Shown: positions 1,526 to 45,464 of the stretch, piece by piece
Numbering within the stretch: the first letter of the stretch is position 1
Layout: every line of letters begins with the position of its first letter
Origin: a virus
DNA: 45,464 nucleotides
IMG/VR virus record: IMGVR_UViG_3300043436_001617
Coordinates: 1-45,464 of that record
Direction: 5' to 3' (one strand)
Position numbers and translations under genes: made by a program
The notes under the pieces: generated by a model
Databases searched by the model: none
What the model saw: the letters and a program-made list of their open reading frames with translations, nothing else
Told to the model about the DNA's origin: nothing

Positions 1526-1553
1526 GTCAGGAAACCCTTACTTGTTTATGTGC

Positions 1554-1580
1554 TTGACACATGGGAGTATCCCGTAAAAA
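1554..1580 (+). promoter_or_regulatory. Possible rightward promoter for the packaging genes
   Basis: TTGACA (1554-1559) lies 15 bp from TAAAAA (1575-1580), and ATG 1589 begins 14 bp after the -10 starts. This matches the geometry of the other near-leaderless promoters in the window, though the -10 is poor and the spacer short. The -35 lies within a 12-mer TGTGCTTGACAC (1549-1560) that recurs on the minus strand at 43378-43367. Confidence 0.35.
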
Positions 1581-6678: not shown

Positions 6679-6995
6679 TTCCTAAACGCGCTGGAGGGTT
6701 ATCTTCTATTGACCTGTCGGTTCCTATGGGCGATGGTCAGCTTCCGCCTATTCCGCCTCAAGCAGCACCGCCCGATTCTGCCCCAGCTTCCGCTGTTGTA
6801 ATGGCCCCTAGCGCCAAATTGACTCCATCCGACGCTATTCGGATGCTGGAACAGTTTAACAAGGTTACAGAAATCACCGTTTCCAATTCGGAAATAGCGA
6901 ATAAGCTATTGGCTAAAAAACTTATCGTTAAATGTGGCGATTTCGCCGTAGTTAGCGAAAAAGGTCTTGGATACTTGGTTGATTTTACCCTTTAA
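6675..6995 (+). CDS. Hypothetical protein with Pro/Ala-rich arm (106 aa)
   Basis: The first 45 residues are rich in Pro and Ala (for example PPIPPQAAPPDSAPAS) and are likely disordered. The C-terminal half (SDAIRMLEQFNKVTEITVSN onwards) looks like a small alpha/beta fold. No family recognised. An ATGA overlap links it to the upstream gene, and the next gene follows after TAA-GCC-ATG. Confidence 0.55.
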   Translation: MIPKRAGGLSSIDLSVPMGDGQLPPIPPQAAPPDSAPASAVVMAPSAKLTPSDAIRMLEQFNKVTEITVSNSEIANKLLAKKLIVKCGDFAVVSEKGLGYLVDFTL

Positions 6996-13784: not shown

Positions 13785-14663
13785 TCAAGCTAGGATAGCT
13801 TCAAGCTGCTGACGGTACTCAGGCGTAACACCCCTACGCGACCAGAAGTATTGGACGGGCGAAATTAAGCCCCTTACTTCGTGAGTGCCGTCAGCATTTT
13901 CCCATAACGTGATGTTGACCTCATCCTTTACGGTTGGATAACCTTTATCGTCACGGGGTACAGGGTTGATGTTGAATTGCCGCCAATACTCGTCTTTGTA
14001 AAACGGGCCGGGAGTAATGATCTGATTAACCATTTGATACCGTTCAGGCTCAAACTCGATTGCATATCCACCGATTGTTGGAAATTCCGCGAATGATTGC
14101 GGGAATTCGTTTCGCTGTAGGAGTACATATTGGGTAAACGGATAATGATGACGCTCCTCAACGCGAGCACGCATTTTGGCATACATGTCTTTGTAGAACA
14201 CGCTGGGATGGCGACACATTGTTTCCCATTCGACGTTGATGCCTAGCGCATACTCTACGTTATGCTTCCATGAGTAACGTGCTCCATATTGCTTGAAATC
14301 CTCGAAATGCTCGCGCACTAGAATGACTTTATTCTCATGCATGAATGTCTCAGGGCTAAACGGTTCCTTAAACACGCAATCAGCGTCGATGTGAACAATC
14401 AAATCGGTATCCCTTGGGCACCATAGGTCAGCTTCGCATTTGACGACTTGATGATGGAGAAAGCCCTTACCATGAGCCTCAAAAAAACTGCGTAGATTTA
14501 CGCCATATTTGCTGGCCAAGACCTTAAATTTAGTCTCGTCTTTAGTTGGTACAACGATAGTTATGCCAGCAAAACCAAAACCAAACTTTTTGATTGAACG
14601 TAGGGTGTATTCGGCAAACTCATAATCATTGCCGTAAGTTACCATGAATAATTCAGCACGCAT
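13785..14663 (-). CDS. Glycosyltransferase (DUF6492-like)
   Basis: A soluble enzyme of about 292 aa. It opens with a Rossmann-like strand (ELFMVTYGNDYEF), has ITIVVPTKDE at 34-43 and the metal site HIDADCVF (91-98, D93/D95). The overall pattern resembles DUF6492-type glycosyltransferases. It is the only glycosyltransferase on the minus strand and converges with the two-domain enzyme. ATG 14663 is preferred over TTG 14678, since the first lies 19 bp from a TGC-TAGGTT box. Likely substrates are virion proteins or intracellular glycans, not visible from sequence. Confidence 0.65.
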   Translation of the reverse strand: MRAELFMVTYGNDYEFAEYTLRSIKKFGFGFAGITIVVPTKDETKFKVLASKYGVNLRSFFEAHGKGFLHHQVVKCEADLWCPRDTDLIVHIDADCVFKEPFSPETFMHENKVILVREHFEDFKQYGARYSWKHNVEYALGINVEWETMCRHPSVFYKDMYAKMRARVEERHHYPFTQYVLLQRNEFPQSFAEFPTIGGYAIEFEPERYQMVNQIITPGPFYKDEYWRQFNINPVPRDDKGYPTVKDEVNITLWENADGTHEVRGLISPVQYFWSRRGVTPEYRQQLEAILA

Positions 14664-14676
14664 TGGGATATTCCGC

Positions 14677-14703
14677 AACCTAGCAGCCTCAATGCGGTTG
14701 CGC
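14677..14703. promoter_or_regulatory. Possible leftward promoter opposing the collagen promoter
   Basis: On the minus strand TGC (14685-14683) precedes TAGGTT (14682-14677), 19 bp from ATG 14663. The -35 (TGGCGC at 14705-14700) is weak and overlaps the -35 of the rightward promoter at 14698, so the two would compete. Confidence 0.3.
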
Positions 14704-14726
14704 CAGCCTTAAATTACCATTATCAT
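14698..14726 (+). promoter_or_regulatory. Promoter of the first collagen gene (leaderless)
   Basis: TTGCGC (14698-14703), a 17-bp spacer and TATCAT (14721-14726, five of six consensus bases). ATG 14734 starts 13 bp after the -10 begins, so the transcript would start at the start codon. Confidence 0.55.
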
Positions 14727-14733
14727 AACTTTT

Positions 14734-15729
14734 ATGGCAGACAATCACAGTTGCATGATTCCTCCGACAGTAGCCTACCTTTTCAAGGGAGTTGTGGGAC
14801 CTACTGGTGCATCTGGTCCTCAGGGTGCAACTGGCCCTGCTGGTGGTCCTTCTGGTCCTTCTGGACCAACTGGAGTAAACGGAGCTACTGGACCCACTGG
14901 ACCTCAAGGACCAACTGGACCCCAAGGCACGATTGGCTCACAAGGACCTGAAGGCATTCAAGGAGCCACAGGCCCTACAGGACCATCTGGAGCAACTGGA
15001 GTAATAGGTTCTACTGGTCCCACGGGACCGCAAGGAGCTACCGGAAGTTTGGGTTTACAGGGTTTAGTTGGTGAAACAGGGGTAACTGGAGCTACAGGAC
15101 CTGTTGGCCCTACAGGACCAGCCAATGGCCCTACAGGGCCTACTGGACCTAGTGGTGCTACTGGCGTAGCTGGACCAACGGGTATATCTGGTCCAACTGG
15201 TCCTACAGGTCCTAGTGGAGCTACGGGACCAATGGGTCCTACTGGCCCCGCCAATGGCCCTACAGGCCCAACAGGGGCTAGTGGAGCGGTTGGAGCTACT
15301 GGTGCCACCCCTAGCATTTACGGGACCGCAAATCAAATTACCGCTGTTCCAACTGGGGCTACATATACACTTGGACTACCAACCAACCTGCAAGCTCCTG
15401 AAAAGATTACAGCAGATAGGTATATAAGCAGAGTATATACAGCTACTTATGCTGCAACAACGGTCATTGATATGGCTGATGGCGACAATCAATACCTGAA
15501 TATTCTAGGCGACGTTGATATTCAGCTTACTGGAATTACAGAGGGGCAATCATTGCTAGTGCGAATAGATACTGACGGAACCGGAAGAAACCTAACGTTT
15601 CCAATTGATTGGAAATGGTTTCCAAATGGAACCGTGCCTACTAGCCTAGCGGCAAACTCCACGGGTCTTTTGGCCCTATTTGCTTGGTCTAATGCCAATA
15701 GCGGGATTGTAGCTGCATGGACTTCCTGA
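14734..15729 (+). CDS. Collagen-like virion fiber protein (331 aa)
   Basis: Residues about 22-188 are Gly-X-Y triplets dominated by GPTG, GATG and GPSG, interrupted at GPAGG and twice at GPAN. This predicts a trimeric triple helix. Residues 190-331 form a C-terminal beta-rich globular domain that may serve as trimerisation or receptor-binding tip ([20 protein letters not shown], then [17 protein letters not shown]). The N-terminal 20 residues, with a Cys, may attach to the virion. Thr-rich Y positions offer many glycosylation sites, and glycosyltransferase genes lie just upstream. Its own leaderless promoter is at 14698-14726. Confidence 0.8.
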
Positions 15730-15732
15730 TGT

Positions 15733-16086
15733 ATGCGTGCATTAAATGTTGTTTCTATTGCAAGCCAAGAGGTTAACATAATTGTTAGCCTCAATACCAA
15801 CGTAGCCACAGCAGAAACGCAAACCTACGAGTTCCCGACAAGCGCCAACACCAATAACATCATTGTTTCAGCCGATGGCGGCAAACTGCCCTACACGTAT
15901 CAGTGGAATTTCATTGAAGGGGACTTTAACGGCATCAGTAGCTTGACGGCAGATAACGTGGTTTTTGCTCTAACCACTAACGAATCCGGTGTTTACAATG
16001 CGTTGTGGACTTGTACGGTAACTGATGATAATGGTTCTCAAGCAACCTCTGAAAATGTTAATGTAACGATAACTTTTAATCCCTAA
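15733..16086 (+). CDS. Ig-like/PKD-like domain protein (117 aa)
   Basis: A single beta-sandwich: VSADGGKLPYTYQWNFIEGD, then ESGVYNALWTCTVTDDNGSQ, the pattern of Ig-like or PKD-like domains on phage virions (Tyr-Gln-Trp core and a Cys-Thr-Val-Thr-Asp strand near the end). Such proteins decorate capsids or tails and may bind carbohydrate weakly. It starts 3 bp after the collagen gene stop and has no separate promoter, so it probably shares that transcript. Confidence 0.6.
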   Translation: MRALNVVSIASQEVNIIVSLNTNVATAETQTYEFPTSANTNNIIVSADGGKLPYTYQWNFIEGDFNGISSLTADNVVFALTTNESGVYNALWTCTVTDDNGSQATSENVNVTITFNP

Positions 16087-16094
16087 TTTAACCT

Positions 16095-18752
16095 GTGGCC
16101 AACGACACCTTCAATTTTGTTCAGCAACCAATTACTCAAACTCCAGAAAGCACACTGGGAGCAACGGGAGCGACTGGGCCAGTAGGAGCTACTGGTGCGT
16201 CTGGACGAGCTGGCGATCCCGGTCCTGCTGGTGGACCTCAAGGTCCTACGGGAGCTACTGGTCCCGGTGGAAATAATGGAGCTACTGGTCCAGTTGGAGC
16301 GACAGGCGCTGAAGGTCCCCCCGGTCCCGCTGCCACAATTGGCGCAACAGGACCCAGCGGACCTACGGGTTCATTAGGTTCTACTGGGCCTACGGGCGCA
16401 TCTGGTCCAGTAGGAAACGTAGGTTCCACAGGACCTGTTGGCCCTACTGGCGCTGCAAGCACTGTTCCCGGCGCTACGGGAGCTACCGGAGTACAAGGTT
16501 TTCAAGGCATTACTGGACCAACTGGAGTAACTGGACCAACAGGTTCACAAGGTTCAACGGGATTGCAAGGAACCACTGGTCCTACTGGTATTCAAGGCCC
16601 AACAGGATTGACGGGTCAAACCGGAATACAAGGTTCTACCGGACCTACGGGTATTCAAGGTATTCAAGGGCCTACTGGTCTGCAAGGTATTCAAGGAGCA
16701 ACCGGAATACAAGGAACAACTGGAGCCACTGGAGCTGGAGTTACTGGAGCTACTGGAGTTACTGGTTCCCAAGGAATTCAAGGCGCTACGGGCGCACAAG
16801 GAAATCAAGGTATTACCGGAGCTACTGGAGTGCAGGGATTAACTGGACAAACCGGACCGCAAGGCATACAAGGTTCAACTGGTCCAACGGGATTACAGGG
16901 TATTCAAGGAGCTACTGGATTGACTGGTCAAACTGGAGTTCAGGGTGCAACTGGTATTCAAGGCAATGTTGGGCAAACAGGCCCAGTGGGACAAACTGGT
17001 CCTGTAGGTCAAACTGGTGTACAGGGACCGCAAGGTGTTACAGGTGTCACGGGTTCCCAAGGCCCGCAAGGGACAACAGGACCAACTGGCCCCGGATTCA
17101 CTGTAAGCACCGCAGTTACGCTTGATCACCTAGTTTCGTTTGTTAATTCCTCAACGGTCAAGGATAGCGGAATTTTGGCAAGCGATGTTGTTGTTCAAGG
17201 AGGTAATGCAACGTTATCAATTGCACAAATTACTCAACTAAAACTTGTTCCAGAGCTTAATTATCCATCTGGAGGTTCTATAACCTTAGATATTTCGGTG
17301 GCCCGAAACCGAATACCGCTAACAATTAACTTAACTGTTGCAGGTACTTCTAACAGGGCTAATACCGCTTTTTCTGTGCTTGAGCTTTACAATAGCACGG
17401 GCGGAAATTTAACCATTACTTGGTCCCAAGCTGGCACTTGGAAAACTAACGGAACATTGCCGACAGTTATTGGACCCGCGCAAACAATGCAATTTCTGTT
17501 TCAGTCATGGGGCGCTAATGAATCTGATATTTCTGTTCAATACATAACTGGAAGCACTTTCCCGAAATTAAATGTCCGGGATTTTGGAGCCAGAGGTGAT
17601 GGAACAAACGATGATTCAGCGGCATTTCAAAAAGCAATGGATGCCGCTGTTTCTCTTTTTACGGGAGGATGCGTTTATTTCCCTGCTGGCCGATACCGAT
17701 TAAATAGTCTGGTTTACAACGATTCAATTGCGCTTCCAAAGAGTCTTACAATTATGGGAGACGGGCAAGGCGTCTCTGTCCTTTCAGGATATAGTGATTC
17801 AGGATTACTAAGACTTGGATTTGCCAAAACAGAAGGATGTCAGTGCAGTTTATTGCTGGCTGATTTTAGCGTTGCCGTTGAAACCACAGGGGCTACTTCA
17901 GCTATAGGAATAAATTTAAGCTGGGCGGCAACGTGTGCTAACACTTTTCAATCTTTAGAAGTTCGTGGAATAACAATAAATCCGCAAACTGATTATTATG
18001 GTAGTGCTTATTACGCAACTCAACTTAAAATAACAAATGCTTGGAATGCTAAATTAACAAATTGCAATTTTCGCGGTAAAAATTCATGTGCTTCGCCAGA
18101 TTGCATACCTCCAATAACTTTTGCTGGAGCCAATGGTGTTGAATTAGCTACCTCAGGTTCAGCGGCTCCGTGCGGTACTGCTGAATCCAATCCTACCAGA
18201 TTTATAGCGTGCGATTTTTACTGTCTTGATAAATGCATATACATATCAGGAAATTTAGAAGGTACAGTTATTGATAATTGTACGTTGCTAGGAGATTACG
18301 GATTATATGCATCTCCTGCCTCTACGCAAGAACACATTTGTGTTTCTAACACTCATGGTTCTAATAAATATAGATCAATTTTCATTCGGAAAATAAAACG
18401 AGTGTACGTTCATGATTGTTTGTTTTTCGGAGATAACGGAGACAGTTCTTTTATAGGTATTGATATTAACGATGACAGTCATTTTAGCTTTGTTCACAAC
18501 AACTGGATTCGTACTGGTAATGGAAATGGAATGGTTTTCCAAGGTACAGCTGGTCACATCATAACCAATAATATTCTTGTTGGTTGCGCTACGGGGATTT
18601 GGTTGCAAGACACAACAACTCAATGTATAGCATCGGGCAACAAAACATTTTCAAGTGATAACGGAGGACCCAATGGATACCCCGGTTCTCCGGGCGGAAC
18701 CGTTGTTTATGATCAAGGAAGCGGAAACCAAGTATTTAACAACTACACATAA
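16095..18752 (+). CDS. Collagen-like tailspike with pectate-lyase-type depolymerase
   Basis: An 885-residue protein starting at GTG 16095. Residues 22-333 are Gly-X-Y triplets, with a block of GIQG and GLQG units in the middle. 334-487 is a linker with a beta-rich module. Residues about 488-870 are a right-handed beta-helix of the pectate lyase 3 type, opening [20 protein letters not shown] and continuing with [15 protein letters not shown]. Such domains degrade capsular or cell-surface polysaccharide. The long collagen stalk would carry the enzyme away from the virion. The beta-helix half is A/T-rich in codons, unlike the collagen half. The start codon is uncertain: it has no promoter or ribosome site. 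Confidence 0.8.
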
Positions 18753-18770
18753 CAACTAAATTTGGTTTAA

Positions 18771-18799
18771 TTGCCCTAAATCCTTCAAACTGATACCAT
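18771..18799 (+). promoter_or_regulatory. Promoter of the third collagen gene (leaderless)
   Basis: TTGCCC (18771-18776), a 17-bp spacer ending in TGA (18791-18793) and TACCAT (18794-18799). ATG 18806 starts 12 bp after the -10 begins. It is nearly the same as the promoter at 22969-22997 (AATTGCCC...AATCC.TCA.A.TGATA). Confidence 0.6.
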
Positions 18800-18805
18800 T
18801 TCCCC

Positions 18806-19516
18806 ATGTCCTGCTCTACCTGCAACCCTCCTGAACCAAGCTCATCTGGCACAACTGGATGCTGCTCTGATGTTAGCATGATTTGCCAGCCTCCGGTTCC
18901 GGTTACAACGGTTGTGGCTGGACCACAAGGCGCTACAGGCCCAGCAGGTCCTAGCGGCCCACAGGGCAATCGTGGTTCTACGGGTGTTCAAGGGCCTACT
19001 GGTGTTACTGGTAGCCAAGGACCGCAAGGTTTGCGCGGCATTACTGGTTCTACAGGCCCTACGGGTATTGCTGGTGATTCCAATCCGCTTGCTTTCTTTA
19101 CTGGAGCTTATTGGAGTCCCACCTATCCTTATGCGGATGCCCTTAACGCTCTAACCACCGAGAAGATCATCAATTTTGGAGCCGTTCCATTTAATAGCGG
19201 CACCTACTTGTTCCATTTTGAAATTCAAGTGGCTTGGAATGCCAATGGCGGCGATACTTCTGGCGACCTATTCATCACTCAGAACATTGGTGAAGGCGAA
19301 ATTGGACTTAAAGCCATTCCTTTTGCCAAATTGACCCGCAATGTCGGCAATGTTGTTTACGGAACCGTTGAGAGCTACAGCATTTGGGCCACGCTGGATA
19401 TTACTCAAGGTTTGAGCTTGTATCTCAAGGGAAACCAGCAATTGCTCATTGGAGCACAATGCGTTGTGTTTAACCTTCCTTCCTACACCATCACATCCCC
19501 CGGTTTCATTAACTAA
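18806..19516 (+). CDS. Collagen-like fiber protein (236 aa)
   Basis: Six of the first 28 residues are Cys ([20 protein letters not shown]), suggesting disulfide cross-linking or metal binding at the N-terminus. Residues 37-90 are a short Gly-X-Y stretch (18 triplets). The C-terminal 145 residues form a beta-rich jelly-roll-like domain ([16 protein letters not shown], then [19 protein letters not shown]), the kind found in receptor tips. It may form a short fiber. It has its own leaderless promoter and is followed by the acidic gene at 19525. Confidence 0.75.
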
Positions 19517-20928: not shown

Positions 20929-22965
20929 ATGGCGCATACAGTCCCACAAACCAGAACCTATAAGGATGTCATTGGCTTCACCGATGGGGTGAATAGCTAC
21001 GTTGACCCTCAGTTTGTGGGCGATACTCAGGTGCGCTGGGCTGAGAATTCCGTTAACAAGGGTGGCATTTGGCAGACCCGTCCGGGGTTTGATAGCGTGC
21101 TATCCTTGATGTACAATTCGTCTAGCGGCGATTTCTACAACTGGTGGTTCAATAATGGTACACCTGACGTTTACCCGCAGTTCTTTACGTTCTTTCAGCC
21201 TACCAACGGCAATCCCCAATTGCTGTTTGGCGTGTCTGGAGCCGTTTTCTACTGCAATATCAATCCTGACGGCACGGTTAATAACCCAGTTTTGATCACT
21301 CAAATCCAATTTAGCCGCCAAGCAGATCAAATTTGCGCGGTTAACACGGTTCGCACTTCCACCCTGCAAAATGGTCGAGTGTGGGTTACGGCTCCACAAA
21401 ACATCTTGATCATGCAGGATGGTGTTAGCCGTGCTTGTTACTGGGATGGCGTAGCCGCTGGTAGCCTTAATCCGGTCAAGAAATGGAAGACGGATGACCA
21501 AGGTAACACAATCTACGTGGATGGCTACAATCAGACCCGTTTGGGCCTGTGGATGGCTTGGAGCGGCAATCGCCTTTGGGTGGCCAACGGCACTCAAGTA
21601 TTCGCTTCTGACCTTGGGGACCCTCTGACCTTTACGGATGAAACCGTGCTGGTTAACATTCCGTCGTTTAACTTTCCAACCACGGTTACTGGTCTTATTG
21701 ATCGTGGAGCATCAGGTGTTCAACAAAACATGCTGTTTGTCGGAACTGATACGGGCATATTTACCATTCAATCGGGCATCCAGCAACGCAGCGAATGGAT
21801 TACCGTAGCCGATTTCCAACGTAAAGTGTTTGCTGGCGTGGGATGCGTTAGCCATAAGTCCATGATTAACCACATGGGCTTGCTGCATTGGTACTCGGAC
21901 AACGGTATCGTTGCCTTTGACAGCTTCGGAACGGTTGTTTCAACCCAAGCCTTGCCTCCCATTGATAGCGAAATGGCCTACTCCAAACAGCAAATGAGCG
22001 GGAATCGCTCTGCTATTTGCGCTGGTAGCTTTGATTCTTACGTCTGGTGGTCAGTTCCCGTGGCTATTAAGCCTTCTAATCCTGAGTATAAAGCTACCTA
22101 CCGTGGACGCATCTACAATGGTCATACGCAGGTTCTTGACCGCATCGTGATGCCCGTAGGATTTAACGTGTCTGCTGGCAGTTCCTTTAGTAGCAGCGCA
22201 TGGCAGGGCGTATGGACGGGTCTAAGGCCCGTAGAATGGGCTACAGCGGTCATTAACGGGCAAAAGAAGGTGTACTGCATGTCGGTTGACTACGATGGCG
22301 TTATTCGCGTCTGGAAGGCGTTTAATGGCAATCGTGCGGACAACAATGAACCCGTGTCGTGGACCATTGAAACCAAGTCCCATGCCGTTACGGACGGTCC
22401 ATTCTCCAAAGCCATATTCCGCACCTTCCGCTTATTAATGACTCAAATCTACGGTGGAGTTACCATCGAAGGCTTTTGGAAGGGATTGCGCGGCAAATAC
22501 CATCAATTGCTCGATACTTCCGTCATGGCAACTCCGGGTTCAGTTCTTTTGGACAACCCTGACTATACGCCAATTGTGAATGCAACGAATCACGAAAGTT
22601 TTGCCAAGCAAACCCGTGATATTCGCGCCAAGGACAATCGCGCACAGGAAACCTGCACTTCTGCCAACGTAGAAGACAAAGATCAGGATGACATTGACCG
22701 CGCTTTCAGCCTTTTGCTCTGTTTCACGGGTGTCGGTGCGCTCAAGGCTTATCGTTTAACCGTCGATTACAACCCCGATAACACGGAAGGTGAGGTTCTT
22801 AACCCTGAGACTGGTCAACACATCCTCCCTGAGGCCAGTTGCCCTGAATACGTGCCTAACGGCTCGCAAAACTACTCCTTTGTTGAGCGCAGCTCGGCAG
22901 AAGCACTTTCCCCTATTTCGAGTAATTACATTGAAACAGGCTATACCCCCACTTATCCTAGCTAA
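20929..22965 (+). CDS. Putative tail tubular protein B / nozzle
   Basis: A 678-residue, beta-rich protein directly after the adaptor candidate. N-terminal segments such as NSVNKGGIWQTRPGFDSVLS match the RPGF opening common in podovirus nozzle proteins, followed by repeated beta strands (QLLFGVSGAVFYCNINPDG, AWSGNRLWVANGTQVF, MLFVGTDTGIFTIQSGI) suggestive of a beta-propeller. In T7 and P22 this protein forms the tail nozzle that carries fibers and closes the channel. No clear promoter or ribosome site is present. The intergenic gap is 13 bp. Confidence 0.6.
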   Translation: MAHTVPQTRTYKDVIGFTDGVNSYVDPQFVGDTQVRWAENSVNKGGIWQTRPGFDSVLSLMYNSSSGDFYNWWFNNGTPDVYPQFFTFFQPTNGNPQLLFGVSGAVFYCNINPDGTVNNPVLITQIQFSRQADQICAVNTVRTSTLQNGRVWVTAPQNILIMQDGVSRACYWDGVAAGSLNPVKKWKTDDQGNTIYVDGYNQTRLGLWMAWSGNRLWVANGTQVFASDLGDPLTFTDETVLVNIPSFNFPTTVTGLIDRGASGVQQNMLFVGTDTGIFTIQSGIQQRSEWITVADFQRKVFAGVGCVSHKSMINHMGLLHWYSDNGIVAFDSFGTVVSTQALPPIDSEMAYSKQQMSGNRSAICAGSFDSYVWWSVPVAIKPSNPEYKATYRGRIYNGHTQVLDRIVMPVGFNVSAGSSFSSSAWQGVWTGLRPVEWATAVINGQKKVYCMSVDYDGVIRVWKAFNGNRADNNEPVSWTIETKSHAVTDGPFSKAIFRTFRLLMTQIYGGVTIEGFWKGLRGKYHQLLDTSVMATPGSVLLDNPDYTPIVNATNHESFAKQTRDIRAKDNRAQETCTSANVEDKDQDDIDRAFSLLLCFTGVGALKAYRLTVDYNPDNTEGEVLNPETGQHILPEASCPEYVPNGSQNYSFVERSSAEALSPISSNYIETGYTPTYPS

Positions 22966-34458: not shown

Positions 34459-37400
34459 ATGTCGTCTTGTGACCAGCCCAATTGGTGTACGCCGCCTAAT
34501 TTCGATGTTATTTTCCCCGATTTAATCGGACCCACTGGCGCGTCAGGTCCAACTGGACCCACCGGACCAACGGGTCCACAAGGCAGCACTGGTCCAACGG
34601 GTTCTAGTGGTCCAACTGGTCCTACAGGCCCCACGGGTCCTACAGGACCGCAGGGAACCACCGGACCTACCGGAACTACAGGACCAACCGGACCCACTGG
34701 TCCTACTGGCCCTAGCGGCACAACAGGTCCAACCGGAACAACTGGCCCAACTGGGCCAACAGGACCATCTGGTACAACTGGACCCACGGGTCCTAGCGGT
34801 GTTACTGGCGCAACCGGACCACAGGGAACGACGGGACCTACTGGAACAACGGGTCCTACCGGACCGACTGGTCCTAGCGGTATTCAAGGAACTACTGGAC
34901 CTACGGGCACCACTGGCCCGACAGGACCTACTGGTCCGTCCGGTCCAACAGGACCGACAGGCCCTTCTGGCACGACTGGACCAACAGGAACCACGGGTCC
35001 AACTGGACCCATTGGTGAAACGGGACCTATTGGCACTACAGGCCCTACTGGATTACAAGGTCCTACTGGACCACAAGGTACAACAGGTCCTACGGGCGTT
35101 ATTGGGCCGACAGGCCCAGTAGGTACAACGGGTCCTACGGGTATTCAAGGTCCTTCCGGTACTACGGGGCCAACAGGGCCTAGCGGTACTACAGGTCCCA
35201 CAGGGACTACAGGTCCTACTGGTTCTTCAGGTCCGACTGGCCCGACTGGCCCAACGGGACCGCAAGGAACGACAGGTCCGACAGGTATTCAAGGACCCGA
35301 AGGTGTTACCGGAGCCACAGGCCCTCAGGGTACTACTGGGCCAACTGGAACGCAAGGCACTACTGGTCCTACAGGAACCACTGGCCCTACGGGTCCAACG
35401 GGTCCCCAAGGGACAACTGGGCCAACTGGTACGACAGGCCCAACCGGACCTAGCGGTCCAACAGGCCCTACGGGTCCTCAGGGTTCTACGGGAGCTACCG
35501 GACCCGCTGGTACGGCTAATGCCCACCAATCGGTCAATTTCGTGTTGTCTGGCGCTAATGCTAGTACCTACTTCGCTGGTACATTGGGCGCTGATGGTGG
35601 TTATGGCGTTGGCGCGTACATTGAAGCTAATGCTAACGGTGCTCTTGGCCTTATCGACGGGCAAACCCCTGTTGTAGGTTATCGGTTGATCATTGATGAC
35701 CGGACTAACCCCATTGAGAACGGTATCTACACCGTTACTAGCCTTGGTTCGCCCACATCAAAGTATCGCTTCACTCGCGCTACTGACTTTGACAATCACA
35801 TTGCTGAACAAGTTACCTACGGCGATTTTGCGTTTGTTCTAACGGGTACTAGCTTCGCTGGCGCTACGATGATTCAGTTCCTTTACGGAACGGGTGTCAA
35901 CGATAGCATTATCATTGGTACGGATGCGATTAACTTTACCCGCACGGGTGGTATTGGAGCTACTGGACCTACTGGAGCTACGGGTGTGCAGGGTGCTGGT
36001 GGTGCTCTTGGTTATTGGGGTTCGTTTTGGGATACCACCAATCAAACCCCTGTCGCAATCAACACTCCGCAAGCTGTTACAATCAATAGTTATGATGCGG
36101 CCAATAATGGCGTTACTGTGGCTTCTAGCAGCCAAGTAACCTTTGAGTATCAGGGAGTTTACAGCATTACGTTCTCAGTTCAACTAACGAATAGTAGCAC
36201 TGCACAAGGCGCGACTCAATTCTTTCTCAAGAAGAATGGCGCTATTTTGGCGGATACGAATTCGCATTACGATGTTCCAGATAAACAAGGTAGTGCGTTC
36301 TCGTCGCAGATATTGACGGTAAACTTTGTCGTATCATTGTCGGCCAGCGATTACATTCAGCTCTTCTGGCAAACAGCTAACGCTAGTGTTACGCTAGAAA
36401 CAATTCCGTCCAATACGACGTATCCACGCACTCCCTCGGTTATCCTCACGGCTACACAGGTGATGTACACCCAGCTTGGGCCATCCGGTGCTACTGGCGT
36501 ACAAGGACCCACAGGACCTATCGGTATTACGGGTGCAACAGGTATTCAAGGCCCAACGGGCTTGCAAGGACCCACGGGCTTACAAGGATTGACCGGAGCT
36601 ACTGGTCCGCAGGGCGTATCCGGTATTGATGGCGCTACGGGCGTTACCGGAGCTACAGGACCACAGGGTATTCAGGGTCCCCAAGGCACCACGGGAGCCA
36701 CTGGCGTGCAGGGTATTGATGGTGTTACGGGCGCAACAGGTGTACAGGGTACAACGGGACCCATTGGTTCAACTGGCCCACAGGGTACAACGGGTGCTAC
36801 GGGCATCCAAGGACCTACTGGCGCTCAGGGTAGCACGGGTGTTCAGGGACCAACGGGTATCCAAGGCACAACCGGACCACAAGGGACCACCGGACCAACA
36901 GGCGTACAAGGCCCAGTGGGTCTTACGGGCGCTACTGGAGCGCAGGGTATTCAGGGTCTAACGGGTCCGACTGGACCCACAGGCCCACAAGGGGCTACGG
37001 GCGCTGCTAATGCGTCAGGAACCACGAACTATCATGCTAAATTCACGGGTGCCAATACGCTTGGTAATAGCGTTATTTTTGATGATGGAACTAATGTGGG
37101 TATTGGCACTACTGCACCCGCTACTCTCCTAGAATTAAAAACAACAACGCCAATTATTACACTTACCCCATCTGGTTATGGTGGAAGTTATCAAACTACT
37201 TTGGGAACAAGAGCTGGTGCTGAAGCGTATCTGATTTTGGGCAATAACTCCGTTAATGAAATCCGAGCTGGACGAAGCGTTGCTGGAGGTATTCTTGATT
37301 TTTACACTAACAATACAGTAGGCCAAGGGTCAACTTCTGACGGAAATTTCGTCATGCGAATGGCGTCAAATGGTAACGTAGGTATTGGAAATACTGCAGC

Positions 37401-39486
37401 AAACGCAAAACTTGAAATAACTGGCGGAACAGCGATGACAAGTGGTTGGAATCGTAGCTTGCTTTTATCTGCCACGTTTCCAGTTCTAGTATTTGGTTCT
37501 AATGCTACAAAGTTTTCGGGAATAGGTGTTGATTACAGTAATGCCGCAGCAGGAATGTTTTTCTGGGTTAACGGTTCCAGCAGTGATATTAGCGGAACTG
37601 GAAACGTAGCTCTTGGTATTAATACTGGTAATTATGTAACAGCTTATGGATCATCCCGCGCTCCAATTTTCTACGATAGTGATAATACGAGTTTTTACGG
37701 TGATTTTGCCAGTACCTCATATGTAAATATTATTACATTTGCTGGAAGTCTTAATTCAAATAGTGGTTATAATAGTCCAAATCAACTTGTAACTGCAAGT
37801 GACACAAATTGGACGTTTGGTTGTTATAATAGTGGAGTTCAATATTGGATGCAGGTTAAATTTTATGGAACAAATGACGCAAATCGAGGTTTTCGAGTTT
37901 TAGATGCAAGCAATTCTAGTGTTCCGTTTTACGTAACCGGAGCTGGCAATTCTTACGCTTCTACAAGTTTCCGCGCACCAATTTTCTACGATAGTAATGA
38001 TACAGGCTATTACGTGGACCCAAATAGCGGAAGTAGGATGGTCGATTTATACTATAATAATTTATATAGCGCGGTTGACGCAAATTACGGATTTAAAGGA
38101 AATAATGTTTATGCAGATACAGTAAATTCTGGAGCCGTTGGCGACCCATTAGAATTATGTTATGTTCGAGGAGCTTATACTACTACTACTGGCAGTATGC
38201 GCGCACCACTTTTCTACGACAGCAATGACACGGCTTATTTTCTTGACCCGACTTCTGGAACAACATCATTAAAGGTTGGCGGAGCTTTAACTCAAGGAAC
38301 TTTGGTTGCCAGACCGTATGTTGCTTGGGGAGCGAGCGGAGATACATCCGGTTGCGTTGTTATTAAATTACCCGGCAACAGTGTATCAAATTACGGAATG
38401 ATTCATGCGGTAATTGATATTTATGAATACAGCGGCAACAATGTTTCAACCGTTGTTATTGGAGGTCATAATTGGAACAATGCATGGTACAATTATGGAG
38501 CGAATATCGTTGGTTTTACTAACAAACAAGTTAGATTATGTGTTGTTGATGGACAATTTGCAATTGTAATTGGCAGCAACGGAGCAGCTTGGTCATACGG
38601 CCAAGTTGTTCTACGCAAAATTCACAACGGCTCCTATTATTCTGGGGTAATGGATTTGGGTGGTTCTTACTCAATCTATCAGACCAATTCTCTTTCTCCA
38701 TCTTGGGATTCAGGTGCTCTTAATCAATTAAGAACAGAAACTTTTATTGCTACTGCGTCAGCATATGCCCCAATTTTTTACGATTACAATAATGGTAGTT
38801 ACTACGTAAATCCAGCGGCAACATCGCAGTTGAGCTTGATTCAAGCTGATAACTACATCTATTGCAGTAATCAAATATACGGAACCTTGCTTTATGATGT
38901 CAATAACACGGGGTATTATTGCGACCCGTCTAACGAATCAAACATGGGGCGCGTTACCCTTGGTGGTAGTCGAACGGATGCCATTCGCAGCACGGGATAC
39001 AACGGGTACGGCAATACTCATTGGGGTCTGGGTGTGGCCAGTGGGCAGGTTGGACTTAACATCACTCTTCTCACTGGCAGCAGCTATTCTCCGATTGACG
39101 CCAGTAATAGCGGTGGCGGCACCATTTTCCGAGCTAACGAATACGGCACCGTAACGTGCGTTTCCCTTACTCAAACGTCCGATGGTCGTTACAAAGACGT
39201 TATCAATGAATTTGAGCTGGGTCTTGACGCTATCCTTGGTCTTCGTCCCGTGCGTTTTAATTGGAACGAAAGATCAACCCTGCGGCGTGATGTGACCTAC
39301 ACGGGATTCATTGCTCAAGAAGTTGAAGCCGTTATTCCAGAAGCCGTGCATTACGACCAAAAGGATGATCGTTATTCCCTTGAGGAACGTCCTATTATTG
39401 CCGCATTGGTTAATGCCGTTAAAGAACTTAATGCGATGAATAAAAACTTGCTGGAACGCATCAAAACCTTAGAATCTAAATCTTAA
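34459..39486 (+). CDS. Giant collagen-like tail fiber with S74 chaperone domain
   Basis: A 1675-residue fiber. Residues 24-352 are Gly-X-Y triplets with GPTG predominating. Residues 353-495 are a globular beta domain. A short triplet stretch (about 496-515) leads to a jelly-roll (517-670, [20 protein letters not shown]). A second collagen block spans 674-850. The shaft (about 851-1570) contains five units built on [16 protein letters not shown]. The C-terminus has a peptidase S74 intramolecular chaperone: S1574-D-G-R-Y-K1579 supplies the catalytic Ser-Lys pair and cleavage before S1574 would release about 102 residues after trimerisation. This would be the main host-range fiber. Confidence 0.85.
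34528..35515 (+). repeat. Collagen-type Gly-X-Y coding repeat (first block of the giant fiber)
   Basis: About 110 consecutive Gly-X-Y codon triplets, with GPTG and GTTG recurring. The DNA uses different codons for the same residues (GGT, GGA, GGC; CCT, CCA, CCC), so it is a degenerate 9-bp repeat. A second block is at about 36478-37011. Comparable blocks are at 14797-15297, 16158-17093 and 18918-19077 in the other collagen-like genes. Confidence 0.85.
37655..38945 (+). repeat. Five copies of a fiber-shaft motif (YDSNDTGYY type)
   Basis: Units near 37661, 37979, 38207, 38769 and 38890 share [RY]APxFYD[SY][ND][ND][TG][GAS][YF][YF]xxP or a shortened form (the fifth is [17 protein letters not shown]). 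They punctuate a beta-rich shaft and resemble the repeats of tail fibers that end in an S74 domain. Spacing varies (roughly 120-560 bp), so they mark domain boundaries rather than a strict tandem array. Confidence 0.7.
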
Positions 39487-42286: not shown

Positions 42287-43018
42287 ATGAAAAAGTTCGT
42301 CATCGCTAGTGACATTCATGGGATTCACAAGGATGAGCGTGCTTGCAATGCGTGCATCAATTTCACGAAGGACTTTAATCCTGAAATAAGGGTGATAGCT
42401 GGCGACCTGTGGGATTTCTCTGCTATCCGCAAGGGAGCCTCTGAGGATGAGCGCGCAGTATCCATGCGGGATGATTTTCTAGCAGGTGCGGAATTCGCTG
42501 ATGCTTTCTTTGAGGGCGGAACTGAGAACACCCTGATGTTGGGTAATCACGACGTGCGTGCATACGACCTAGCTCACTCAGTAGATGCCGTTAAAGCCGA
42601 TTTGGGGCATAAAATGGTAGAGGACATAGAATACGTCGCTAGGAGGAACAATGCCTCTCTAATTCCTTACGATAGTCGCGCAGGAGTGCTTGAAATTGGA
42701 CACCTTAACGTGGTTCATGGATTTCATACGGGAATGTCGGCTTGTGCATCTCATAGTCGTATCTATGGGAACGTAGCTTTTGGGCATTGCCACTCAATCG
42801 AATCCTTTCAAACCCCCGGCCTCAATCCACAGGAGGCGCGTTGCATTGGTTGCTTGTGCGACCTTAACCCTGACTATGCAAACCGCAAGACGGGTAAACT
42901 AAGGTGGAGTCACGGTTGGGCCTATGGATGGGTCGAGGAGGACGGAACCTACTCCATATTCCAAGTGCGGGGCATTAATGGCAAATTCCGCACCGCCAGT
43001 GACGTTAAAACTTACTAA
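42287..43018 (+). CDS. Calcineurin-like metallophosphoesterase
   Basis: A 243-residue metallophosphoesterase with all family motifs: D9-x-H11 (SDIHG), GD40LWD, GNHD (86-89), H144 (VVHGFH) and GHCH (166-169). It needs two metal ions and hydrolyses phosphoesters in nucleotides, nucleic acids or proteins. It could be a nuclease or a nucleotidase, and similar phage proteins act in nucleotide or DNA processing. Next to it, in a TAATG junction, is a small winged-helix protein. The -35 region upstream has two TTGACA. Confidence 0.85.
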   Translation: MKKFVIASDIHGIHKDERACNACINFTKDFNPEIRVIAGDLWDFSAIRKGASEDERAVSMRDDFLAGAEFADAFFEGGTENTLMLGNHDVRAYDLAHSVDAVKADLGHKMVEDIEYVARRNNASLIPYDSRAGVLEIGHLNVVHGFHTGMSACASHSRIYGNVAFGHCHSIESFQTPGLNPQEARCIGCLCDLNPDYANRKTGKLRWSHGWAYGWVEEDGTYSIFQVRGINGKFRTASDVKTY

Positions 43019-43245
43019 TGAAAACTAGCGATGCTTGGGCTAAGATGGATGAGTTAATGTCGGCTGAATTTATACCTGATGAAGCGGGTTGGTTCACGGC
43101 CATGGATTTTGTTGCTAAATATAAACTGAATGAAAGAACCGCTAGGGATAAACTAGATAAATGGCAAAAAGACGGCATAGTTGAGAAGCGTCGTGGAATG
43201 ACTAGCTCCTGCAAAAAGCCGCAGAACTACTTCCGTCTGCTTTAA
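43018..43245 (+). CDS. Small winged-helix DNA-binding protein (75 aa)
   Basis: The sequence WFTAMDFVAKYKLNERTARD, then KLDKWQKDGIVEKRRG and YFRLL fits a winged helix (helix-turn-helix plus wing). It may regulate the adjacent genes, or act with the phosphoesterase. It starts in the TAATG of the phosphoesterase stop and is the last rightward gene before the minus-strand operon. Confidence 0.7.
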   Translation: MKTSDAWAKMDELMSAEFIPDEAGWFTAMDFVAKYKLNERTARDKLDKWQKDGIVEKRRGMTSSCKKPQNYFRLL

Positions 43246-43338
43246 AAAATAAACCCCTCCTACAGAGTCGTAAGAGGGGTCGTTAAGGCAGGTTTGGCCA
43301 ACCATTCGTAGCCAATAGCTACGTTTTGCTTTAATCTG
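43246..43338 (-). ncRNA. Candidate small RNA (about 93 nt)
   Basis: On the minus strand a promoter (TTGACA 43373-43368, 17 bp, TACCTT 43350-43345) predicts a start near 43338. About 15-20 nt on is a perfect hairpin CGTAGC-TATTG-GCTACG (43323-43307), then a self-complementary TTGGCCAA (43299-43292), and the transcript ends at an intrinsic terminator (43280-43253) with a T-rich tail. No open frame of note lies inside. The long leftward operon ends at 43379, and the same terminator could serve it. Confidence 0.4.
43253..43280 (-). terminator. Intrinsic terminator (leftward)
   Basis: A perfect 7-bp stem ACCCCTC (43253-43259) with GAGGGGT (43274-43280) and a 14-base loop. Reading leftward it is followed by TTTATTTTTT. 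It would end transcripts of the minus-strand operon and of the candidate small RNA. The rightward tail (CGTTAAGG) has no T run. Confidence 0.7.
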
Positions 43339-43344
43339 ATACCG

Positions 43345-43373
43345 AAGGTATATTAATCCGCTTTACGTGTCAA
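43345..43373 (-). promoter_or_regulatory. Promoter of the candidate small RNA
   Basis: TTGACA (43373-43368), a 17-bp spacer and TACCTT (43350-43345). It lies within TGTGCTTGACAC (43378-43367), a 12-mer also found at 1549-1560. No annotated gene follows it in this direction within the terminator-bounded segment. Confidence 0.45.
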
Positions 43374-43378
43374 GCACA

Positions 43379-43594
43379 TTATGCCTCTTCTGCTTGGCTG
43401 TTGGTACTGGTGAAGTAGGGCCTTTCCGAGGTCAATTCAACGACTTCATGCTCCTCGATTAGCCTACCCTGCCAAGCTACTTGGTAGAGTAAGCCCGAAG
43501 ACTTGTACAGCAACCCAACGATTACCCCCGGCGTATCTTCCGTCTTGTGATACACCATTTCGCCTATCTTGTAGGTAGGGGAATCGGGACTCAT
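43379..43594 (-). CDS. SH3/KOW-like small protein (71 aa)
   Basis: Residues about 10-55 (IGEMVYHKTEDTPGVIVGLL, then YQVAWQGRLIEEHEVVELT) read as an SH3-like barrel: a five-strand pattern with a Gly-Glu-Met-Val-Tyr opening and a W in the fourth strand. These bind nucleic acid or proteins in other systems. It is the last gene of the minus-strand operon, 4 bp after the RuvC-like gene. Confidence 0.65.
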   Translation of the reverse strand: MSPDSPTYKIGEMVYHKTEDTPGVIVGLLYKSSGLLYQVAWQGRLIEEHEVVELTSERPYFTSTNSQAEEA

Positions 43595-44126: not shown

Positions 44127-44332
44127 TTTCTGGATAATGGAAAAGATTCAAAGCAATCGGGACATTCATAACCCGTGGTTTTCTTGGTCTTCCAATCGTA
44201 GCACTGGATTAACCGTGTGTAGTTGGTCTTGTTGTTGTATTCCTTACGAAGGTCAGGCGGGATAACGGCACCCACCCACGATACCCCGCATTCGGGGCAA
44301 TTGCGCTCATTAGCGACATTGCGATTTTTCAT
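44123..44332 (-). CDS. Zinc-ribbon protein (69 aa)
   Basis: Two CxxC knuckles (CPEC at 12-15 and CPDC at 57-60) flank a 40-residue stretch, the layout of a zinc ribbon. The rest is Lys/Asn-rich. No family named. It overlaps its neighbours with ATGA junctions on both sides, within the operon of the resolvase and the MazG-like protein. Confidence 0.7.
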   Translation of the reverse strand: MKNRNVANERNCPECGVSWVGAVIPPDLRKEYNNKTNYTRLIQCYDWKTKKTTGYECPDCFESFPLSRK

Positions 44333-44610
44333 ACGTCAATTGGCTTAGTTCCTTTTAAGGCCCATTCATAGCAAAGCAGATAACCGTGGGCATCTACGAT
44401 ATTGTCTTCCTTGTGACGGAAGGCTTCGCGGCTCAACTTAAGGGCGACCATCATGAGAATGGCTTCCTCTGCCGTGATTTCTTCCTTTAGCTTGGAATGA
44501 AGAAGTCCAGACCACATTTTGGCTGTCTTCGTGTAATCATCTTTGGGATTGCCGTAACTTTCGTTACGATCACCAAAAACTAACTCTTGGGCTTTTTGTG
44601 CGTTATTCAT
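44329..44610 (-). CDS. DUF6378-like (MazG-superfamily) protein
   Basis: A 93-residue all-helical protein with the pattern GDRNESYGNPKDDYTKTAKM, EEAILMMVALKLSREA, and DNIVDAHGYLLCYEW. This matches the DUF6378 proteins of phages, related to MazG-like nucleotide pyrophosphohydrolases (conserved R-x-x-YG and K-L-x-R motifs, with a DN-x-x-D site). Such enzymes clear nucleotides or ppGpp, but activity is inferred. ATGA overlap with the gene downstream. Confidence 0.75.
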   Translation of the reverse strand: MNNAQKAQELVFGDRNESYGNPKDDYTKTAKMWSGLLHSKLKEEITAEEAILMMVALKLSREAFRHKEDNIVDAHGYLLCYEWALKGTKPIDV

Positions 44611-45312: not shown

Positions 45313-45464
45313 CGAAGTAGGTGTGTCGGACGTATTGCTTAGTCCAGAACTGCCATGAGGTACGGTCAAAGAACAAGGGAACGTCCTTGTCCTCGCCATC
45401 ACCAAAGCGTTGCTTGTCGATGCGGATGCGACCATCGTACCAGCCTTCAATCTCGGTCTGCTTC
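45296..45464 (-). CDS. Partial gene of unknown function (C-terminal 55 aa)
   Basis: A frame open at the window edge runs to TAA 45298-45296. It encodes KQTEIEGWYDGRIRIDKQRF, then GDGEDKDVPLFFDRTSW and FWTKQYVRHTYFDAKGV. The acidic, aromatic-rich sequence looks like the end of a real gene. It overlaps the SWIM gene by 17 bp. No family is recognised; the rest of the gene is outside the window. Confidence 0.6.
   Translation of the reverse strand, partial: KQTEIEGWYDGRIRIDKQRFGDGEDKDVPLFFDRTSWQFWTKQYVRHTYFDAKGV

Follow-up and report, generated by a model that had tools for sequence, protein, structure and literature searches.

A candidate gene for a small noncoding RNA between convergent operons of an uncultured phage

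Introduction

Few small RNAs have been described from virulent phages (PMC4933390). Two of them, sRNA1 and sRNA2 of the Pseudomonas phage PAK_P3, are noncoding RNAs of ~100 nt that derive from intergenic gaps of a virulent phage and whose function is not known; both are abundant late transcripts in RNA-seq, sRNA2 being located between tRNA genes (PMC4933390). Lambda OOP RNA, which has its own promoter, and P22 sar RNA are short phage RNAs that silence an overlapping gene or protein-coding start (cII, ant), and PreS of lambda and VpdS of VP882 are phage-encoded, Hfq-dependent trans-acting sRNAs that serve phage replication (PMC12197685).

Here, we analysed a 45,464-bp IMG/VR record of an uncultured virus of bacteria, which in its full length is referred to as the window. 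A gap of 133 bases (positions 43246-43378), in which a plus-strand and a minus-strand operon converge head on, had been read as a candidate small-RNA gene in a first-pass annotation. The candidate shares with the PAK_P3 sRNAs its length, its lack of coding capacity and its intergenic position. This likeness is one of description; the gap lies between convergent operons and, in contrast to the PAK_P3 transcripts, the candidate is known from sequence alone. As a short phage RNA it would resemble OOP and sar, but its predicted antisense overlap is confined to the untranslated 3' end of the plus operon, and coding targets were not found. The likeness to PreS and VpdS is looser and lies in the trans action that we infer for the candidate, Hfq dependence being a feature of PreS and VpdS; a sequence relation to these two was covered by the Rfam search only. 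By its predicted features the candidate resembles known phage intergenic small RNAs, and its sequence matches no Rfam family at threshold.

Results

The plus-strand genes extend from 1589 to 43245 and include the terminase large subunit and collagen-repeat tail fibre proteins. The minus-strand genes run from the right edge of the window to 43379 and include a Holliday junction resolvase-like protein. Past this edge, related contigs (L051, L052, L053) carry the replication genes primase/helicase and exonuclease, which identifies the minus unit as a replication operon; as these contigs extend past position 45464, the window covers only part of a larger genome. Among annotated phage records, neither the gap region at the DNA level nor the three large proteins tested (terminase, metallophosphoesterase and an 814-aa protein) found a match.

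Several other features of the window were recorded. Genes with long collagen-like Gly-X-Y repeats (14734-19516 and 34459-39486; one has 1675 codons) match tail fibre families. A 949-nt gap in the plus operon (13785-14733) holds a minus-strand ORF of 297 codons (13785-14678) without a PHROG match, and this gap is 98% identical in G001 compared to 78% for the fibre gene that follows. A 93-aa ORF on the minus strand (44329-44610) matches PHROG families labelled phosphofructokinase (phrog_474, E 1.7e-16, ~75 residues), a label that is doubtful for so short a protein.

The features of the convergent gap are summarized in Table 1. The parts named by the first-pass annotation were all located at the stated positions. 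Hairpin 1 may also serve the structural operon, and the minus-strand terminator must also serve the replication operon (see below).

Table 1 Predicted features of the convergent gap (window coordinates).
Feature	Position	Strand	Observation
Predicted small RNA, ~92 nt	43246..43337	-	Fold z = -4.5; body conserved; covariance model
Hairpin 1, CGUAGC-UAUUG-GCUACG	43307..43323	-	No change in stem or loop in any homologue
Hairpin 2, GGUU-GGCCA-AACC around the TTGGCCAA palindrome	43291..43303	-	Predicted fold; invariant in all homologues
Closing helix, UUAA.GCA / UGC.UUAA	43283..43334	-	Three-way junction with hairpins 1 and 2
Intrinsic terminator, common to small RNA and replication operon	43252..43281	-	13 pairs including G-U; TATTTTTT tail
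13-nt box ATGTGCTTGACAC, overlapping the -35	43367..43379	-	Exact second copy at 1548-1560 (+)
Predicted small-RNA promoter, TTGACA-N17-TACCTT	43345..43373	-	Only TTGACA-N17-TANNNT in the window
Short variable stretch between -10 and predicted start	43338..43344	-	CGGTATC in the window, GGGTATC in L002, AGTGGTC in L035

The proposed minus-strand promoter is indeed present, with TTGACA at 43373-43368 and TACCTT at 43350-43345. For TTGACA-N17-TANNNT 0.37 occurrences were expected in the window, and TTGACA with TANNNT at a spacing of 16-18 arises in 0.3% of shuffles of the gap. TACCTT is a weak -10 that shares three of six bases with TATAAT, so that a stricter promoter scan does not list the site. 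TTGACA and TATACCTT are unchanged in all six distinct homologous sequences; a promoter of the candidate's own is predicted from a site that is unique and invariant but weak in its -10. The main variable stretch outside the terminator is that between TACCTT and the predicted start, where the invariant block resumes. Promoters tolerate change between -10 and +1, and the variability at 43338-43344 would fit such an unconstrained stretch. The spacer is conserved as well, which a plain sigma-70 promoter does not need. We did not count the small hairpin ATACC-TTC-GGTAT (within 43353-43339) in the element; L035 disrupts it.

The promoter box had been reported to recur at 1549-1560. We find the repeat to be exact over 13 nt, and ATGTGCTTGACAC occurs exactly twice in the window, the left copy lying shortly ahead of the plus operon, whose first gene starts at 1589. 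In contig L076 this copy is kept in 13/13 positions, within a gap that is 95/100 identical and ahead of a gene that is 641/810 (79%) identical. By a hand estimate, the chance that some 13-mer of the gap recurs in the window is ~0.16, and the match is suggestive mainly through its location at the start of the structural operon. As the left copy has no good -10 at a 17-nt spacing and forms an inverted repeat, TGTG-N5-CACA, it may be a regulator site instead of a plain -35. The 100 nt upstream of the first plus gene (1489-1588) contain CCAATTGCA twice, the box and GGGAGTATCCC, and are 95% identical in L076 compared to 79% for the following gene. The ATG of this gene coincides with the predicted transcript start, and its mRNA may be leaderless.

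Counted from the predicted start at A43337, the transcript would be ~92 nt long, close to the ~93 nt first proposed. The 6-bp hairpin that had been placed 15 nt into the transcript (hairpin 1; in DNA letters CGTAGC-TATTG-GCTACG, read from 43323 to 43307) begins after ~14 nt. The TTGGCCAA palindrome was likewise found (43294-43301), but with one copy in the window against 1.66 expected it is not enriched. The minus strand folds with -34.0 kcal/mol compared to -19.6 kcal/mol for shuffled sequences. The plus strand is as foldable (z = -4.6), and folding energy by itself therefore gives no preference for either strand.

The relatives are more informative in this respect. In the minus-strand fold of the body, every pair is kept in all five tested variants: the change in L001 alters a bulge base and breaks no pair, and in L035 a G-C pair of the closing helix becomes G-U while an A-C mismatch becomes A-U, resulting in eight continuous pairs. 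In the plus-strand fold, L001 and L035 each lose one pair, and the minimum-energy fold of the body changes in L035. This pattern favours the minus strand, with the reservation that the changes are few and that roughly one in two single changes would do no harm in any case. Two-sided covariation, which had been suggested as a check on the hairpin pair, was not observed: the stem and loop of hairpin 1 do not vary, the pair-keeping changes are all one-sided, and the homologues vary too little.

The intrinsic terminator claimed in the first-pass annotation is the strongest in the region (-20.5 kcal/mol) and ends in a T-tract, as the 3' ends of bacterial and phage intergenic small RNAs do. Among the homologues, 98.5% of its alignment cells are paired, with two one-sided pair-keeping changes. 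The change in the L035 terminator was considered as compensatory and rejected, since it is a mismatch, the only one there. This terminator must also end the replication operon, whose last gene stops at 43379. On the plus strand, hairpin 1 followed by TTTTGCTTT forms a terminator-like site, plausibly the terminator of the structural operon. Some parts of the element are thus ordinary operon punctuation.

Homologues of the element were found in nine other IMG/VR contigs, giving six distinct versions including that of the window. In the most divergent, L035, the flanking genes have an identity of 64-80% over all sites and of 41-66% at third-codon positions, compared to 54/56 for the body (43283-43338), 36/40 for the promoter segment (43339-43378) and 30/37 for the terminator segment; the 100-nt stretch of highest identity in this comparison is that at 43291. 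The 90/96 matches of body and promoter segment would arise by chance with a probability of ~1e-10 at the 66% third-position identity of the best-conserved flank, and of ~1e-4 at the 80% all-site identity of conserved coding flanks. In L043, the body is identical (56/56) and the promoter segment nearly so (39/40), against 63-89% at flanking third positions. Across relatives with diverged flanks, the body ranges from 54/56 to 56/56. The limits of the conserved block coincide with the gene borders, the final codons of the minus gene excepted, and this speaks against its having been transferred recently. Changes are confined to four places. They affect the terminator in its stem and T-tract, the body in two neighbouring bases and one bulge base, a single base that follows TTGACA, and the segment separating TACCTT from the predicted start. 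Conservation thus exceeds that of the flanking coding sequence, and no reading frame is conserved, as expected for a small RNA.

The known range of the element is about nine related contigs. Degenerate patterns for body and promoter matched only contigs of the same group, the body core had no exact match in the genome collection, and a covariance model, run on the window, the sister clade and other contigs, returned a single copy in the window and no copy beyond the group. In L088-L090, whose neighbouring 71-aa protein is ~60% identical, the element is absent and another gene follows directly. Judged from these searches, the element is lineage-specific, present once per genome and restricted to this phage group.

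Six contigs of the sister clade (L012, L014, L017, L018, L019, L020) carry on the plus strand a different noncoding region of 70-180 nt, strongly folding and well conserved. The metallophosphoesterase homologue lies ~200 nt upstream of this region, the homologue of a 75-aa ORF comes between the two, and the next gene follows. The region consists of two modules, of which the second is optional; L015, L021 and L025 have a short form. The L018 region contains a stem-compatible change and had no Rfam match at E up to 5. From its sequence, this region looks like an undescribed structured RNA.

Within the window, Rfam gave no match at the gathering threshold, and permissive thresholds yielded nothing that was accepted. 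The best weak matches were to LhrC (score 23, gathering threshold 110), PyrR (20.7 and 54) and sroE (14.2 and 51). LhrC (RF00616) aligns weakly over its full length to the same stretch, which at E = 0.16 we take as chance.

The gap had been described as free of coding frames, which is essentially right. A minus-strand ATG frame of 50 codons (43305-43153) is present, but a small protein was rejected, as this frame continues across the terminator and length differences occur just beyond it in L001 and L035. The predicted 3' end of the RNA, at ~43246, lies one base beyond the stop codon of the ORF on the opposite strand (43018-43245), and complementarity to an opposite coding region or start, as in OOP and sar, was not found. 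Target prediction, also proposed earlier, returned no duplex above chance in 49 phage start regions, 16% of shuffled RNAs giving one as good as the best. Two complementarities of 12 nt to the candidate RNA lie at 20992 and 6915; both are away from start codons, and that at 6915 involves only the non-coding strand of a plus-strand gene.

Discussion

Our analysis suggests, with a probability of roughly 60%, that the gap is the gene of a phage small noncoding RNA of ~92 nt transcribed from the minus strand. The small-RNA reading of the first-pass annotation is thereby retained as the best supported one, mainly through the conservation of the gap and the upkeep of the minus-strand fold; its -10 is weak, some of its parts are operon punctuation and its palindrome is not enriched. 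Transcription by the RNA polymerase of the phage or the host would begin near A43337, driven by TTGACA-N17-TACCTT just beyond the last stop codon of the replication operon, and end at the terminator. The predicted fold of the RNA is a three-way junction of two hairpins and the UUAA/GCA closing helix, with the terminator hairpin behind it.

Much of this anatomy could also arise if the gap merely held two facing terminators, the plus operon ending at hairpin 1 with TTTTGCTTT and the replication operon at 43281-43252, with no separate RNA gene and an incidental TTGACA. Such terminators are certainly part of the picture: a scan finds both T-tract hairpins, one per direction, the genes converge exactly there, and a convergent gap needs both. 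Punctuation would constrain pairing and T-tracts, however, and not loops, linkers and 40 nt upstream, and in L035 the body and the promoter segment are better conserved than the minus terminator itself. As the whole explanation we consider it unlikely. Since 3'-UTR-derived small RNAs such as CisR are known (PMC13250501), the transcript of the replication operon might instead enter the gap, fold and terminate there, its 3' piece being cut off or protecting the mRNA; a separate promoter would then not exist. The last replication gene is the immediate neighbour of the gap and is read from the same strand, no terminator intervenes, and the same terminator would be used. This leaves unexplained why TTGACA and TATACCTT are invariant and rare, why the box is repeated at the start of the structural operon, and why a variable stretch lies just before the predicted +1, and we regard it as distinctly improbable on its own.

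Conservation as DNA, for instance of a protein-binding, replication or packaging site, would agree with the palindromes TTGGCCAA and TAGCTA, with the conserved spacer region and with the inverted repeat at 1548-1560, which could be an operator. Neither palindrome recurs in a pattern, however, and the changes in relatives respect the pairing of one RNA strand, including G-U. Moreover, we noticed no integrase in the proteins that were searched, and a tRNA/tmRNA search found none. This makes a DNA-level element very improbable.

For the favoured small-RNA gene, the conserved loops and linkers suggest that the RNA would act in trans through its sequence, by base pairing or protein binding. The likeliest target would lie outside the window, e.g. 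a host RNA or protein. The presence of the ATGTGCTTGACAC box at both the structural operon start and the candidate promoter suggests a common regulation of the two. Because the replication operon ends at this terminator as well, the RNA may also, or instead, occur in a form derived from the 3' UTR. A bolder version, in which an undescribed lineage-specific RNA acts on a host target through its nearly invariant three-way-junction body and is switched on together with the structural operon via the TGTGCTTGACAC box, is tentative and, we think, rather doubtful as a whole; the ribosome, an RNA chaperone, the polymerase or a host mRNA would be candidate targets.

To our knowledge, the small RNAs of uncultured phages are almost unexplored. 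A noncoding stretch of ~100 nt under stronger constraint than the adjoining genes suggests a function overlooked by gene-based annotation, and the candidate provides a defined sequence to seek in environmental RNA data. Comparing noncoding gaps across viral contigs in this way can separate ordinary terminators from candidates for RNA genes.
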